DNA from: Turicibacter sanguinis
GTDB taxonomy: Bacteria; Bacillota_I; Bacilli_A; MOL361; Turicibacteraceae
Direction of reading: 5' to 3'
Length of the DNA stretch: 64,000 bases
NCBI RefSeq assembly: GCF_013046825.1
Contig: NZ_CP053187.1
Coordinates: 403,501-467,500, forward strand
The notes beneath the pieces were generated by a model, which saw nothing but the letters and a program-made list of their open reading frames with translations, was not told the DNA's origin and searched no databases. Position 1 is the first letter of the stretch. Every line of letters begins with the position of its first letter. Of the stretch, positions 2,205 to 14,996 are shown piece after piece. A program made the position numbers and the translations under genes.

Positions 2205-2490
2205 GGTTATGCCTTGGTTTAGCGTCACTCTCAGCCTTTTATTTAATCCAGCTTCGAGCGACAATCTTTCTATAAAGTCTCCTAATGCTACTAAACTCAT
2301 AAACCGAGTTTTGAGCATTAGCTACGACTTTTACGCAAGATTACCCGTCACTCTCAGCTTTTTATTTAATCCAGCTTCGAGCGACAATCTTTCTATAAAG
2401 TCTCCTAATGCTACTAAACTCATAAACCGAGTTTTGAGCATTAGCTACGACTTTTACGCAAGATTACCCGTCACTCTCAGCCTTTTATTT
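2205..2490 (-). repeat. Family II palindromic repeat array after dut (2 units plus partial)
   Basis: Two nearly identical 123-bp tandem units (2245-2367 and 2368-2490) preceded by the end of a third (2205-2244). On the plus strand each begins AATCCAGCTTCGAGCGAC and ends GTCACTCTCAGCCTTTT. Each folds into one long hairpin: GAG.GAC with GTC.CTC, AATCTT with AAGATT, TAAAGTC with GACTTTTA, TAATGCT with AGCATTA, and AAACTC with GAGTTT. The array starts directly after the dut stop codon and points the same way relative to transcription as the other family II arrays. A plus-strand frame through the repeats is not considered a gene. Confidence 0.9.
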
Positions 2491-5565: not shown

Positions 5566-5723
5566 CCCCACTAGAGGAGAATAGCTAAGAGCCTTTTGGC
5601 TACTTAGCATGGGGGCCCGCCCCATTAAAGGATGATAACTAAGAGCCTTTCGGCTACTTAGCATGGGGGCCCGCCCCATTAAAGGATGATAGCTAAGAGC
5701 CTTTCGGCTACTTAGCATGGGGG
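5566..5723 (-). repeat. Family I GC-rich hairpin array after fruK (3 tandem units, 54-bp period)
   Basis: Three units at 5566-5615, 5620-5669 and 5674-5723, period 54 bp, in an AT-rich genome. On the plus strand each has CCCC, two variable bases, an AGGAGAAT/AAGGATGAT segment, the stem-loop CTAAGAGCC...GGCTACTTAG and closing GGGG(G). Thus the outer C4/G4 stem encloses an inner stem-loop with an unpaired purine-rich bulge on one side. The array lies between fruK and the EIIBC gene, and the last codons and stop of fruK are inside its first unit as read by transcription. Confidence 0.9.
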
Positions 5724-9101: not shown

Positions 9102-9142
9102 ATTAACTTTTCAAAAACGTTTGATTTCGCCTTTTTTTACTC

Positions 9143-9505
9143 AATCTAGCTTCCTCATGCATCCTGGCTATCAAATTCGATAAATCTCTTTGAACAAAAA
9201 CGTTCAATTGGCTTTCTCTTCATTTGTACGCCAGGATAACCGCATGATTCAGCCTTTTATATTCAATCCAGCTTCCTCAAACAGAAGCCCTATAAAGTTT
9301 CTTTCCCCTAGATGACTAAAAAACAGCCATCTGTGAAAGTTCACTTTTACGGGCTTCTAAGCGTTTGATTCAGCCTTTTATATTCAATCTATCTTCATCA
9401 AACAGAAGCTCTATAAAGTTTCTTTCCCTAGATGACTAGAAAACTGTCATCTGTGAAAGTTCACTTTTACGGGCTTCTAAGCGTTTGATTCAGCCTTTTA
9501 TATTA
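9143..9505 (-). repeat. Family II palindromic repeat array after nrdD (3 units)
   Basis: Units at 9143-9264 (122 bp), 9265-9385 (121 bp) and 9386-9505 (120 bp). The first has stems CATGC/GCATG and ATCCTGGC/GCCAGGAT; the other two, nearly identical to each other, have CAAAC/GTTTG and AGAAGCCC/GGGCTTCT plus TATAAAGT/ACTTTTA. All share AATCYAGCTTC or a close variant at one end and GATTCAGCCTTTTA at the other. A remnant of another unit end (GTTTGATTTCGCC) is at about 9119-9131. The array begins within two bases of the nrdD stop codon. Confidence 0.9.
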
Positions 9506-10459
9506 AAGATGCATAACACGACATTTAATTTCCGCTGTTTTCCCTTTATTCCAGAAATTGTCTCCCAAATAACCACAGGTACGACGAATAACATTCATCT
9601 TCGCTTGATCCTTATTATGGCAATTCGGACATTCCCATGATAAGTCATCATTTAACGTAATTTCACCTTCAAAGTGACAAACATGACAGCAGTCAGACTT
9701 CGTGTTAAATTCAGCGTATTGAATATTATGATAAATATAATTTACTAATTGTTTTAATGCTTCTAAATTGTGTTGCATATTTGGAATCTCAATGTATGAA
9801 ATGCATCCACCTGTTGAAATCGGTTGGAATTGAGATTCAAATTGTAACTTACTGAACGCATCGATTTCCTCACGAACATCGACATGATAAGAATTTGTAT
9901 AATATCCTTTATCAGTAATATCCTCGATTTGACCAAATTTCTGTAAATCAATTTTTGCAAAACGATAGCACAATGATTCAGCCGGAGAACCGTATAATCC
10001 AAATCCAAGACCTGTTTCAGCCTTCCACTTCTTCGTTGTCTCTTCTAATCGTTTCATTACCTTAAGTGCAAACGCCTCACCTTTAGGATCAACGTGAGAA
10101 ACACCTGTCATTAACTTCGTCACTTCATATAACCCGATATATCCGAGTGAAATGGTTGAATATCCATCCATTAATAACTTATCAATCGTCTCACCTTGTG
10201 GTAAACGAGCAATGGCTCCATATTGCCAATGAATTGGAGATTCATCTGCTAACGTTCCTTTTAAGGCATTGTGACGGCACATAAGTGCTTCAAAACATAA
10301 GTCTAAACGATTATCTAGTAAATCCCAGAACTTCTCTTCATCTCCTGCCGCTACAATTCCGATTTGCGGTAAATTTAAGCTGACAACCCCTTGGTTGAAA
10401 CGTCCTTCAAATTTATACTCACCATTTTCATCTTTCCATGGTGATAAGAAACTTCTACA
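9503..10459 (-). CDS. nrdD: Anaerobic ribonucleoside-triphosphate reductase, exon 3
   Basis: Third exon, 318 codons plus stop, beginning with the Cys of the conserved M-G-C-R-S-F-L motif and ending with the glycyl-radical region RRTCGYLG...RVMHL. The four zinc-ligand Cys are visible as CCHVCHF and ECPNC just before it. NrdD reduces ribonucleoside triphosphates to dNTPs without oxygen, activated by NrdG. The exon begins at 10459, directly after the terminal G of a group I intron; the codon before is GGT from exon 2, so the reading frame is continuous after splicing. Reading it alone would give a protein starting at a non-canonical TTG, which is not realistic. Confidence 0.93.
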   Translation of the reverse strand, partial: CRSFLSPWKDENGEYKFEGRFNQGVVSLNLPQIGIVAAGDEEKFWDLLDNRLDLCFEALMCRHNALKGTLADESPIHWQYGAIARLPQGETIDKLLMDGYSTISLGYIGLYEVTKLMTGVSHVDPKGEAFALKVMKRLEETTKKWKAETGLGFGLYGSPAESLCYRFAKIDLQKFGQIEDITDKGYYTNSYHVDVREEIDAFSKLQFESQFQPISTGGCISYIEIPNMQHNLEALKQLVNYIYHNIQYAEFNTKSDCCHVCHFEGEITLNDDLSWECPNCHNKDQAKMNVIRRTCGYLGDNFWNKGKTAEIKCRVMHL

Positions 10460-11432
10460 CAAACGAGGGTATATTTCTATACTGGTTACTCGCTCTGACT
10501 ATATCTTCGCTCAGGACTCCCACATCCGTCTACGCGCCCTGCACTTCCAGTAGGTGCATCCCCTACTGTACTCTACTCGCTTCTTCACTCAATCACGTTG
10601 AGCTATGCTTTCGATAGTCGATTGACTTTCTATATAATCTTCATAATATTTAAAATAATAACCCCTATAATCTGATTTTGTTCTTCCTCTACATCGGTTA
10701 CTTACCATCCCTAGTGTTGTCACATTAAAATGATTTTTTAGCTCCAATAAAGTATCAAATATTGACACCTCGTTTGTGAGCTTAGATATTGCAACACATT
10801 TTCTAGCAGATGGAGTTTCTTTACCTCTTTTTCCAAACATTCCATTTCTTGAACCTCTTAAACCGCCGTTCCTTCTCATCGGATTTTTATCTCCGATTTT
10901 ACTCAGTCTAATCTTCTCTGAAATGGCAGTTTTATTAGGATGACTAGATAATGTATCGCCGCCGCATTTCCCTTTACTTGATTTTGTATTGTATCCCTTA
11001 TTTACAGCATCAAAATAATTAATCCAATACAGTTCCTTTTCATCAAGTTCTTCTTGAGTTACAGCAACATCAATTTGCTCAATACAAAATTTATCTGGCC
11101 CATATTTCCTTATTGCCCTATAAAATTTTGTATCATGCTCATCCTTTTGATATCCAATATGACGACTAAATCTCTTTTCAAGAGTTTCACTTGTTTGGCC
11201 AATATAAATTTTTTGATTTGAAGTACAAGTTATTTTATATATTATGATTTTTATCACTCCATTTTGATGGAGATTATATAGCTTAGCACTGGATTACCAT
11301 ATGCCATAGCACTTAGGCTTCCCAGTTAGCACACTCTCAAACAGTCATTTCCTACTGTTCCAAATAAAATTGTAGAATGCACACCTGTTACGCACATAAC
11401 AGTTCACAAGGTTTTACATGAGCCGAGAATTG
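10460..11432 (-). mobile_element. Group I intron 2 in nrdD, with GIY-YIG endonuclease
   Basis: A 973-nt insertion between exon codon GGT (last base T at 11433) and TGT (10459). The intron ends in G, and its last 130 bases contain GAAGATATAGTCAGAGCG, the usual P7 3' strand of group I introns (AAGATATAGTC). T before the 5' splice site and G at the 3' splice site are the group I rule. It interrupts the codons for M-G|C-R-S-F-L. An endonuclease reading frame occupies a peripheral loop (10589-11257). Confidence 0.9.
10589..11257 (-). CDS. Intron-encoded GIY-YIG homing endonuclease (intron 2)
   Basis: 222 aa. The N-terminus has the GIY-YIG signature as YKITCTSNQKIYIGQTSETL, then the catalytic Arg/Glu-type segment EKRFSRHIGY and a later NUMOD3-like DNA-binding repeat (ISEKIRLSKIGDKNPM) and a C-terminal segment (VSIFDTLLELKNHFNVT) with helix-turn-helix character. 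Such enzymes cut intronless alleles and spread the intron. Start is GTG at 11257 with only a weak ribosome binding site, typical for intron genes kept at low expression. Inside a peripheral loop of the nrdD intron 2, upstream of the P7 core. Confidence 0.9.
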   Translation of the reverse strand: MIKIIIYKITCTSNQKIYIGQTSETLEKRFSRHIGYQKDEHDTKFYRAIRKYGPDKFCIEQIDVAVTQEELDEKELYWINYFDAVNKGYNTKSSKGKCGGDTLSSHPNKTAISEKIRLSKIGDKNPMRRNGGLRGSRNGMFGKRGKETPSARKCVAISKLTNEVSIFDTLLELKNHFNVTTLGMVSNRCRGRTKSDYRGYYFKYYEDYIESQSTIESIAQRD

Positions 11433-11744
11433 ACCCATTGGGCTAAATACATTTCCTTCATAAATCTTACGCATTTCTTTAGCAGAAATATAATCCGGAT
11501 ATAAACGTTTAGAACTACATTCAACCGCTAACTCCGTAATATAATCATACTTACCACCCTCTAAACAGTTATGCTCATGTAACACATAAACTAATTTAGG
11601 GAACGTTGGCGTCGTATAAATACCTTTTTCATTCTTAATTCCTTGAATACGTTGTTTCAAGATTTCCTCGATAATTAAAGCAACCTCTTCAGCATACTCA
11701 TCATCTTCATTTAAATTTAAAAATAATGTAACAAATGGGCTCTG
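11433..11744 (-). CDS. nrdD: Anaerobic ribonucleoside-triphosphate reductase, exon 2
   Basis: Middle exon of exactly 104 codons (312 bases), reading QSPFVTLFLNLNEDDEY at the start and NVFSPMG at the end. It continues exon 1 (…INTLMTTNG) to give the well-known NrdD stretch TTNGQSPFVT and exon 3 to give SPMGCRSFL. Both borders follow the group I rule, T at the exon end and G at the intron end. The exon is unambiguous by conservation and length, and it cannot be a gene of its own. Confidence 0.92.
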
Positions 11745-11897
11745 CATTACCCTCCGCCTTATTTCTAAGGGGACTGACTATCTCTTCATCCGGTCTGGAT
11801 GGGTGGCGCTTCGGAAAAAGGACTTTCACCTTTAACCTACTCCCATTACGGGATAGTCGATACACCTTTCCTTGATCAAATAACATCACCTTTATTT

Positions 11898-12016
11898 AAT
11901 CTAGCTTTCCCATATATTACAACTATAAAATTAGATTAACCCAATATGAGTAAAAAACACTCATACCGGCTTTCTCTTCATTTTTACGTCGCAATATTCG
12001 CATGGTTCAACTTTTT
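11898..12016 (-). repeat. Family II palindromic unit inside nrdD intron 1
   Basis: A single diverged 119-bp unit: starts AATCTAGCTTT, ends GGTTCAACTTTTT on the plus strand. It shares the internal block GGCTTTCTCTTCATTT with the unit at 9143-9264 and keeps CCAT/ATGG and ATGAGT/ACTCAT pairing. It lies in a peripheral region, where it should not disturb splicing. Confidence 0.75.
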
Positions 12017-12040
12017 AGGACTTGGCACGATATTGGCATA

Positions 12041-12796
12041 TTACTCTATAACTTTAAAATAAACTCCTCTATAACAACACTCTGTTTTACCCTTCATACA
12101 TCGACATAAACTTCCATTAGATTTTCCATTTTTAGAAACTGAAATTTCTGCAAGTTTCATTGAGTCAAAAACCTCACCGGTATTTAAATTAATTATTTTT
12201 TTCACCTTTCTTTTTGAAGGTTTTTCTGGCTCGATAATATTATTATTCTCATCTAACCATCTAAAAACCAATCCCCCTGTACTCCCTCGTGTACCTCGAC
12301 ATACAGCGGAAATATGTGAAAAATTTAAATCAAGTATTTTAGAACACTCCATTGCAGACTCATAAATCTGATTATTAGTTAAACAAATAATTGGTTTAGA
12401 AGTAGGACTCAACTTTCCCGTCTTTCCATACGCATGATTCAACACACCTTTTTGAGACTCACCAATTTTACGTTTAGTTTCTTCTGAATGAGACCCTATA
12501 GAATCTCCTCCACCTTTAACATTGTATCCCCATCCACCTTCAATTAAAGAATTATATTTTTGAATATAACCTAATTCTTTTTGATTTAATTCTTCAACAG
12601 AACTAGCTATATCTATTAATTCTTTATCAAAGTTATCCCATCCATATTTTTTAATAGCTCTAGCAATAGGATAATCTTTAGTATGTTTAAAGTTTGGTGA
12701 GTTTTTATGAGCTAATAATCTTTTATTTAAATCTTTTAACGTTTGACCTATATAAACTTTATTATTTAATTTATTGGTAAGTTTATAGATATACAT
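12041..12796 (-). CDS. Intron-encoded GIY-YIG homing endonuclease (intron 1)
   Basis: 251 aa from the ATG at 12796 (MYIYKLTNKLNNKVYIGQT); the frame is open further upstream but the conserved GIY-YIG domain begins here. The catalytic region shows YIYKLTN and VYIGQT, followed by LNKRLLAHK and AIKKYGWDNFDKELI. A NUMOD3-type segment EETKRKIGESQKG is near residues 125-137, and a C-terminal region (SMKLAEISVSKNG) resembles HTH DNA-binding modules. It is related in layout to the second intron's enzyme, but the sequences are clearly different, so the two introns are probably independent invasions. Confidence 0.88.
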   Translation of the reverse strand: MYIYKLTNKLNNKVYIGQTLKDLNKRLLAHKNSPNFKHTKDYPIARAIKKYGWDNFDKELIDIASSVEELNQKELGYIQKYNSLIEGGWGYNVKGGGDSIGSHSEETKRKIGESQKGVLNHAYGKTGKLSPTSKPIICLTNNQIYESAMECSKILDLNFSHISAVCRGTRGSTGGLVFRWLDENNNIIEPEKPSKRKVKKIINLNTGEVFDSMKLAEISVSKNGKSNGSLCRCMKGKTECCYRGVYFKVIE

Positions 12797-12929
12797 TTGA
12801 ATATTCCTTAATGAGTTATTATAGAGTAACTTAGCGTTCATCGTTAGCATTTCTATACGAAACACACCCTACATTTGTAGGTTCACCACCTGTTCATCTT
12901 ATTATTCCTAATAAGCGCGGCCAATTTTA

Positions 12930-13784
12930 ACCGTTTGTTGTCATTAATGTATTAATTTGGTATTGAATTGTTTGTACTCCAGATGCGAGTTCTTTTTTCA
13001 TTAAAGCCTCTACCGTTTGGTCAAGCTCTACTTGTGATGAGATACACTCTTTTAACATATTATAATACTTCATCTTACTACGGCGCAGATACTTACCTAG
13101 ATGGCGAATATCAATTGACTGTCCACCATATTGACTGCTTGCTACTTGAGCAATAATCTGAGTCATTACTGTACAAGCGACTTGGAATGACTTAGGACTT
13201 TCAATCATACGCTTATTAATTACAGTTCCGTTATCTAACATATCTTTGATATCGATTAAACAGCAGTTAAAAATAGATTGCATGAAATAATCCATATCAT
13301 GGAAATGAAGAACTCCCTCATCGTGAGCTTGAACGATACGAGCCGGCAACTTCTTACGACGTGTAATATCTTTTGAAACTTCCCCTGCAATTAAATCACG
13401 TTGAGTTGAGGCCATCATTGGATTCTTATTCGAATTCTCATTCATAACCTCTTCGTTATCTAATTCAATTAAACTTAAAATACTATCATCCGTTGTATTT
13501 GTTTCGCGCTTAAATTGTTGAATCGCACGGTAACCTTCATATGCCTTAGCTGTTAACTCATGTCCATTTTCAATTAACTTTAAATAGACAAACGTTTCAA
13601 TCTGAAAAATCGTTGGAGTGGTATTTAATGTATCAAAAATTAAATTAATTTCATGGGCAATCTTCTGTGCTAATTCTTCATCAACTACCCCGCTTCCAAA
13701 CTTCATTGCTTTTAAAATGGCTTGATAAATTTTATTTTCATCAAACACTACATGACTTCCATCGCGCTTAATTACCTCACGCAT
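12930..13784 (-). CDS. nrdD: Anaerobic ribonucleoside-triphosphate reductase, exon 1
   Basis: First exon, 285 codons from ATG 13784 (MREVIKRDG), preceded by AGGAG eight bases upstream; ATG 13811 with GGAG six bases upstream is an alternative that adds nine residues. Residues 1-90 form an ATP-cone domain (VIKRDGSHVVFDENKIYQAI), the usual allosteric site. The catalytic barrel follows, with RDLIAGEVSKDI and ARIVQAHDEGVLHFHDMDY. It ends at GGT in TTNG. Spliced length with exons 2 and 3 is about 707 aa, close to the E. coli-type enzyme. The partner activase gene nrdG is at 2983-3486. Confidence 0.93.
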
Positions 13785-14031
13785 TAGACCATCTCCTATA
13801 CCATTAGACATAAAAATCTCCATCCCTTCGTTTGTCCAATATGCTCGAAAAAAACAAAAAGATGAAGATTTAATATCTCATATAATACTAGAAAAAAACA
13901 GATTATTCAAGCAAGATGTTTATGTAAATTCAGGACATTATTTTCATTAAATTTGAAAACATTTACTCCTTTACTTTTAAGAAATTCATGTTATAGAGCT
14001 AAAACAAATAGCTTAAATTTTATGTTTTTTT

Positions 14032-14996
14032 AATCTAGCTTCAAGTGGCAACATCCTGGCAAATTCTCGATAGTCACTTGTGCCTATGCCACTACGGACT
14101 CTCATCAAATTTCAGCGGATGTTAATCGCCTCTTTCAGCCTTTTTTTTGTAATCTAGCTTCAAGTGGCAACATCCTGGCAAATTCTCGATAGTCACTTGT
14201 GCCTATGCCACTACGGACTCTCATCAAATTTCAGCGGATGTTAATCGCCTCTTTCAGCCTTTTTTGTATAATCTAGCTTCCACAACCTAACGCTTGAGAA
14301 AAATCGAAAGCAACTTAGGTTTCACACATCGAAACCCTATTTACTTTCTTGCATTTTTTCAAGCATCAAAACGGTTGTCTCAGCTTTTTTTGTAATCCAG
14401 CTTCAAGTGGCAACATCCTGGCAAATTCTCGATAGTTACTTGTGCCTATGCCACTACGGACTCTCATCAAATTTCAGCGGATGTTAATCGCCTCTTTCAG
14501 CCTTTTTTGTATAATCTAGCTTCCACAACCTAACGCTTGAGAAAAATCGAAAGCAACTTAGGTTTCACACATCGAAACCCTATTTACTTTCTTGCATTTT
14601 TTCAAGCATCAAAACGGTTGTCTCAGCTTTTTTTGTAATCCAGCTTCAAGTGGCAACATCCTGGCAAATTCTCGATAGTCACTTGTGCCTATGCCACTAC
14701 GGACTCTCATCAAATTTCAGCGGATGTTAATCGCCTCTTTCAGCCTTTTTTGTAATCTAGCTTCAAGTGGCAACATCCTGGCAAATTCTCGATAGTCACT
14801 TGTGCCTATGCCACTACGGACTCTCATCAAATTTCAGCGGATGTTAATCGCCTCTTTCAGCCTTTTTTGTATAATCTAGCTTCCACAACCTGACGCTTGA
14901 GAAAAATCGAAAGCAACTTAGGTTTCACACATCGAAACCCTATTTACTTTCTTGCATTTTTTCAAGCATCAAAACGGTTGTCTCAGCTTTTTTTGT
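14032..14996 (-). repeat. Family II palindromic repeat array after the yedE pair (8 units, two types interleaved)
   Basis: Eight adjoining units. Type A (117-119 bp; stems GGC...AACATCC with GGATGTT...GCC) starts at 14032, 14151, 14394, 14637 and 14754. Type C (about 124 bp; stems CAACC/GGTTG and GCTTGAGAAAAAT/ATTTTTTCAAGC) starts at 14270, 14513 and 14873. The plus-strand order is A-A-C-A-C-A-A-C. Copies of one type are almost identical, but A and C share only their ends (AATCYAGCTTC, CAGCTTTTTT) and fold. The minus-strand gene upstream uses a TGA inside the last unit as its stop codon. This accounts for nearly all of the 1.2-kb gap before nrdD. Confidence 0.92.

Follow-up and report, generated by a model that had tools for sequence, protein, structure and literature searches.

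Intergenic palindromes that lie near gene ends, both dispersed and clustered, are known as REP or BIME sequences and REPINs, and the strand-polar REP/REPIN hairpin is thought to move as single-stranded DNA. Integron attC sites of the VCR type are folded single-strand sites with R-box motifs, cassettes, and an integrase. Enterococcus faecalis carries Efa-1 and EFAR, which we take to be the same element. A REP is defined as a 20- to 40-bp palindrome with a GTAG or CGTC tag (PMC3733652), and Efa-1/EFAR repeats of enterococci are intergenic, structured, and located preferentially near gene 3' ends (PMC1590033, PMC2267715, PMC3733652). BOX and RUP of Streptococcus pneumoniae and bcr1 of Bacillus cereus are small nonautonomous structured repeats of Bacillota (PMC3049150, PMC2267715).

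Here, we analyzed a family of hairpin repeats, starting from an array in a window (the whole stretch of 64,000 nucleotides under study, bases 403501 to 467500) of the Turicibacter sanguinis chromosome. The units share with REP/BIME sequences and REPINs an intergenic, dispersed and clustered occurrence near gene ends and a strand-polar hairpin, but they are 117 to 127 nt long, begin with TAAAARGCTGA, end with GAAGCTRGATT, and have a conserved series of bulges and loops, which places them outside the REP definition. Like Efa-1/EFAR, they are structured intergenic repeats present in enterococci; by description alone, Efa-1 differs in having 163 bp and two adjacent stem-loops, whereas a unit is a single hairpin of ~120 nt. 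BOX, RUP, and bcr1 resemble the units as small nonautonomous structured repeats in Bacillota and differ in size and modules; in the literature consulted, no placement at coding edges and no codon signature is described for them. Sites of the attC type are similar in length, fold as single strands, and follow genes, but the units lack R-box motifs and cassettes, and no integrase was seen.

An eight-unit array between yedE and nrdD

The array occupies minus-strand positions 14029 to 14996 of the window, where it separates the 3' end of yedE from nrdD. Its eight units are ordered C-A-A'-C-A'-C-A-A in the direction of yedE transcription, or A-A-C-A-C-A-A-C when the plus strand is read. The features of the window are listed below; gene names throughout were read from protein sequences, not taken from a family search.

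2242..2490, minus strand: two-unit array, the second in the window, immediately behind a dut-like gene
9140..9503, minus strand: three-unit array, the third in the window, immediately behind the last piece of nrdD
11895..12020, minus strand: lone unit, with a GIY-YIG reading frame on one side and the second piece of nrdD on the other
12927..13823, minus strand: nrdD, first piece, located downstream of the array and identified from its sequence
14029..14148, minus strand: unit 8, type A, last in the array
14148..14267, minus strand: unit 7, type A
14267..14393, minus strand: unit 6, type C, identical to unit 4
14391..14510, minus strand: unit 5, type A', first half of dimer 2
14510..14636, minus strand: unit 4, type C, second half of dimer 1
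14634..14753, minus strand: unit 3, type A' (GCTGG variant), first half of dimer 1
14751..14870, minus strand: unit 2, type A
14870..14996, minus strand: unit 1, type C, whose AAAAAGCTGA box gives the yedE stop codon
14983..15549, minus strand: yedE-like gene, with its last codons and stop inside unit 1

Type A units are 117 nt and type C units 126 nt long. Copies of type A differ from each other by 0 to 4 bases and those of type C by 0 to 1, whereas A and C differ at 53 to 54 of 116 aligned sites, with a further 9 to 11 gap columns, and have their ends and architecture in common. Compared with dinucleotide shuffles, both types fold on the minus strand (z = -4.0 for A and -6.1 for C), and each unit of the array matches the family covariance model at E <= 1e-14 in a whole-genome search, types A and C being among the 21 units used to build that model.

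A sequence-only reading of this locus had described eight palindromes of two interleaved types, each nearly identical internally and unlike the other, and this description agrees with what we found. It had also proposed that A-C pairs were duplicated or that gene conversion acted within each type. The two A' units, each directly before a C unit, indeed form a tandem 243-bp A'C dimer (units 3-4 and 5-6); the host genome is a single contig of 2.9997 Mb at 100% completeness, and the exact count of identical dimers rests on its assembly. Homogeneity within a type reaches beyond the locus, to a six-copy type A array 285 kb away (C1:703102-703799), behind a deoxynucleoside-kinase-like gene, that is 91 to 97% identical; a pyrR-like gene is followed by a relative of type C (77%). 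The predicted turnover is supported between species, as the yedE of congener G001 ends without any unit, and the argument that slippage of one unit would not suffice is upheld by the interleaving of two unrelated interiors. What the reading missed is the size and dispersal of the family, in which A and C are just two of many interiors; the "alternating types" are thus mostly units of different origin that accumulated in one array. An effect of the array on the 3' end of the yedE transcript, also suggested there, would be plausible, given that the TGA of the first unit's box is the yedE stop codon and that the 300 nt following the array yielded no intrinsic terminator.

Two GIY-YIG reading frames interrupt the neighboring nrdD (window 9503-13823), leaving it in three pieces; no known intron family matched. 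In a congener (L141), the first nrdD gap has a unit, apparently without a GIY-YIG frame.

A dispersed family with a strand-polar fold

A search with the shared ends recovered many more interiors built on the same plan, at a unit size of about 117 to 127 bp. From the foot upward, the fold comprises a 4-bp AGCT foot, a G-A internal loop, a 6- to 7-bp stem, a 4-nt one-sided bulge (GNUU), another 6- to 7-bp stem, a small internal loop, a 5-bp stem, and a variable tip. A MITE would have terminal inverted repeats in common with an insertion sequence; the unit ends pair only via the AGCT foot plus G-A mismatches, and no parent insertion sequence came to light. The consensus from 21 units, aligned with MAFFT without the use of structure, has 22 pairs, 14 of which show compensatory double changes. 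Across these units, 95.0% of cells pair, compared to 70.8% in shuffles, and 115 cells carry double changes, compared to 32.1 (0 of 500 shuffles reach either value); sliding the partner by one to three columns lowers pairing to 33 to 47%. Among 28 units of Enterococcus ureasiticus, in an alignment fitted to the model, 96.6% of cells pair and double changes number 83 versus 23.

The strand on which the fold is conserved can be read from G.U pairs. In Turicibacter, where units are mostly sense, G.U cells outnumber A.C cells by 24 to 7 on the unit-sense strand, half of the G.U cells being contributed by one foot pair. In E. ureasiticus, where units are mostly antisense to the neighboring mRNA, the ratio on the unit-sense strand is 28 to 3, an excess that may be somewhat inflated by the fitting of that alignment to the unit-sense model. 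If units acted as part of a neighbor's mRNA, wobble pairs would be expected to favor the mRNA strand; since the excess instead follows the unit-sense strand in Turicibacter and in E. ureasiticus alike, the fold under conservation is that of the element and not of the neighboring mRNA. We read this polarity as a probable constraint on the propagating form, which would be single-stranded DNA or an RNA of its own.

In this genome, the covariance model finds at least 50 units at about 18 to 20 places, a lower bound with 150 of 3,018 first-look candidates scored. One genome was compared per species. The other seven Turicibacteraceae genomes contain 12, 24, 1, 5, 3, 1, and 0 units, the first two counts being from congeners, and whole-genome counts in six Enterococcus genomes are 113, 89, 85, 72, 70, and 50; further counts are 22 in Fictibacillus, 13 in Bacillus MUM 116, 12 in a Streptococcaceae MAG, and 0 in one Streptococcus. 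With stricter filters, Turicibacteraceae was the sole matching family among 296 genomes of the class and 392 of Bacillota. A pattern for the unit-to-unit junction, run against 84,980 species genomes, matched Enterococcus species, the Streptococcaceae MAG, a few Bacillaceae, and scattered others, many of them confirmed by family models; no E. faecalis record in that set matched. The units had no Rfam match at a family's gathering score, and no relevant report of a family with these features was found in the literature. Judged by these searches, the family appears not to have been catalogued previously, being absent from Rfam. Phages were rejected as the main route of spread (0 junction matches and one unit in IMG/VR), as was carriage on plasmids (no match).

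Several observations concern the settings of the units. In this genome, the arrays found are confined to about one third of the chromosome (C1:315752-1295148), plus an isolated place at C1:2858391-2858673; a separate pattern search repeated this clustering, and dnaA is not at the start of the contig. In three congeners, units within prophage-like regions stand beside a gene with an HxH (HUH-like) motif, and a related IMG/VR region has a unit behind another small gene (L145 5532-6679, L137, L143, and L186). In genome G002 (L087, L149, and L184), units, some of them weak, lie directly behind an apparent 5S rRNA, there being about a dozen near-identical copies across the genome. Enterococcus arrays behind an oppF-like gene adjoin a TnpB-like gene, as read from the sequence (L102 and L094), and frames of the same size stand beside arrays behind the oppF-like gene at L109 and L113.

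Coding edges, missing terminators, and silent codons

Units stand at the edges of genes. In 25 of 42 Turicibacteraceae arrays, the foot of a unit lies within 15 nt of a same-strand stop codon, compared to 6.6% expected for random intergenic positions on a random strand (p = 2e-19); the genes in this test are long open reading frames, not calls of an annotation pipeline, and some arrays are at loci orthologous between species, so that not every array counts as independent. Of the 22 E. ureasiticus units, 16 start right at the Shine-Dalgarno sequence of a gene on the opposite strand, a complementary CCTCC-type flank being found at 15 of 22 units versus 0.5% of random positions, and two units follow a same-strand stop. 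Three Turicibacter units abut an opposite-strand Shine-Dalgarno sequence in the E. ureasiticus manner. Both arrangements leave the coding body on the 5' side of the unit.

Many arrays border genes whose proteins read as nucleotide metabolism: dut, nrdD, deoxynucleoside kinase, tdk, mazG, purL, purB, and pyrR. Such neighbors are found at window positions 2242-2490, 9140-9503, and 14029-14996 and at L121, L122, L123, L125, and L127.

Comparison with orthologues bears on gain and loss. At dut, pyrR, the S4-domain gene, tdk, and mazG, units or remnants are present in this genome and absent from the congeners in which orthologues were found. At ahpC, yaaT, purL, and purB, a unit is present in two or three species with diverged sequence, which also fits a long-term host function and counts against mobility. 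In at least one congener, the unit-free dut, pyrR, and S4-domain orthologues have a terminator-like hairpin directly after the stop codon (read by eye); these hairpins were not found in the 500 nt after the corresponding arrays of this genome. Unrelated strong terminators lie further downstream at several unit loci. A sense-direction hairpin followed by a U tract occurs in 1 of 23 arrays (lacI of G004, inside the hairpin), and a role of the units as sense intrinsic terminators is not supported.

In Turicibacter genes that directly precede a unit, the silent sites of the last ~25 to 30 codons are depleted of U and G, a signature that was first noticed while reading gene ends and tested afterwards. 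Across all unit genes of this genome, C occupies the third position of the last 20 codons at a frequency of 0.243, compared to 0.101 in 118 other genes (p = 3e-6), and the signature is still present when all 13 usable unit genes are pooled. In four species, NNY codons among the last 30 end in C at 0.66 versus 0.25 (p = 5e-23) and NNR codons end in A at 0.96 versus 0.74 (p = 8e-11); this set leaves out nrdD, yedE, and tdk, and its p-values are therefore optimistic. The signature fades by ~40 codons and is present in congeners too, in one of them by a single gene. Orthologues that have no unit lack it. It is also absent from nrdD, yedE, and tdk, which have units; after the fact, we read these units as possibly young insertions. 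Gene starts beside E. ureasiticus units show no comparable signature.

Several sources of this composition were tried and rejected. Plain codon optimality fails on leucine codons, as CTA makes up 0 of 74 TTA plus CTA codons in the ATP-synthase alpha and beta genes versus 17 of 35 at unit-adjacent ends. Under a pure transitional mutation bias, the change at four-fold sites would not be mainly to A instead of C, as it is. Protection of the unit's own fold is not indicated either, the native upstream sequence shifting unit pairing by -0.02 on average relative to recoded versions. The native upstream RNA is itself modestly less paired than recoded versions (mean z of 1.5). The targets of B. subtilis RNase Y are AU-rich and weakly structured, with a preference for a GA dinucleotide and, in many cases, structured RNA downstream (PMC11780869). 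From these preferences and the downstream structure, our favored explanation, at the level of a guess, is that the signature may reflect avoidance of RNase Y-type cleavage beside a strong hairpin.

Explanations for the family

The explanation we consider best, with somewhat better than even confidence, is a nonautonomous mobile family of hairpin repeats that replaces gene flanks. We infer single-strand-hairpin mobility, one-ended flank replacement, unequal recombination, and RNase avoidance as its parts. The conserved object would be one strand folded into a long interrupted hairpin, and new units would be copied to new sites with the 5' (TAAAARGCTGA) end against a coding edge. Tandem multiplication by unequal recombination could then give mixed-type arrays such as C-A-A'-C-A'-C-A-A. 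Sense units behind a Turicibacter gene would replace its native 3' flank, including the terminator at dut, pyrR, and the S4-domain gene, and genes with a replaced flank would lose silent-site U and G from their last ~25 codons: with a strong hairpin at the stop codon, the preceding mRNA may become a substrate for a factor that recognizes U/G-containing single strands, with RNase Y as the candidate. Against mobility, the family has been tied to no transposase or recombinase, and neither an established target-site duplication nor, with one genome per species, an empty site within a species was seen. Short repeats, as might mark such a duplication, border some arrays, e.g., ACACAAA at the deoxynucleoside-kinase (dGK) array. 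A tentative proposal, which we think more probably wrong than right, goes further: the units would constitute, in Bacillota, a new class of transposable repeats of the single-strand hairpin type, combining one-sided insertion at coding edges (a stop codon on the unit's own strand or a Shine-Dalgarno sequence on the opposite one), terminator replacement, and selection for U/G-free silent codons over the last ~25 codons of the host gene.

The sense orientation of units directly behind stop codons, the signature in the preceding 25 codons, the persistence of units beside certain genes across two or three species, and strong terminators further downstream at several loci would all suit a host cis-acting RNA element of the 3' untranslated region (UTR), which stabilizes, processes, or insulates the mRNA end and includes the A/C-rich coding end. 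We nevertheless find such an element unlikely: E. ureasiticus units are mostly antisense before genes and yet keep the unit-sense polarity without a comparable codon signature, nrdD, yedE, and tdk lack the signature, and further units are seen within prophage-like regions and downstream of 5S rRNA. A U/G-poor coding end could alternatively be a rut site, with the unit protecting the 3' end left by Rho, and the C-rich, weakly structured upstream RNA and the lost intrinsic terminators would agree with Rho-dependent termination. Rho, however, is absent from five Turicibacter genomes, in which the best TIGR00767 match scores 38 bits against a cutoff of 509 and consists of two neighboring frames that are both ATP-synthase subunits, and U, which Rho tolerates, is the most depleted base; for Turicibacter, we regard this reading as already refuted by the absence of Rho.

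Folded single-strand sites for a tyrosine recombinase, like integron attC sites and accumulated without cassettes, would account for an imperfect hairpin of attC-like size, its strand polarity, and tandem arrays behind genes, but R boxes (RYYYAAC/GTTRRRY) are absent among the conserved columns of the 21-unit alignment, the arrays contain no gene cassettes, and an unsystematic look noticed no integrase near them, and we hold this to be quite improbable. An ordinary slippage repeat or an assembly artefact, to which the near-identity of copies might point, is more improbable still, against two unrelated interiors that are interleaved with 53/116 differences and a family that recurs at about 18 to 20 places and in other genomes.

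If the mobile, flank-replacing family is real, the last ~25 codons of a host gene would carry a codon-level footprint of a mobile element. The composition of silent sites at coding ends varies with whether a repeat is present, a comparison for which unit-free orthologues serve as controls, and the cost to an mRNA of a hairpin behind its stop codon becomes directly testable in bacteria without Rho. The family adds a large structured repeat that is missing from Rfam, with more than 100 copies in at least one Enterococcus genome, and a case in which the folding strand of a repeat can be separated from the mRNA strand.

Variant units and adjoining elements were seen at several loci. Behind nrdD of G001 (L152), AAAAGGCTAGTATAAATTAGAT is consistent with an internally deleted unit, and behind mazG (L122 3669-3720), a 5' box joined to a 3' half resembles a deleted-unit remnant, the codon signature being kept. 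Enterococcus MMGLQ5-1 has double-length units of ~250 nt whose ends are those of ordinary units (L099 6105-6358, L105 2589-2840, L105 3088-3339, and L111 5015-5265). A second palindromic family (TTCCCTGCGCTACGTAGC..GCTATCCTC..GCAGGG) adjoins units in congeners (L138, L142, L145, and L146) and is perhaps also present in the window near position 5711.
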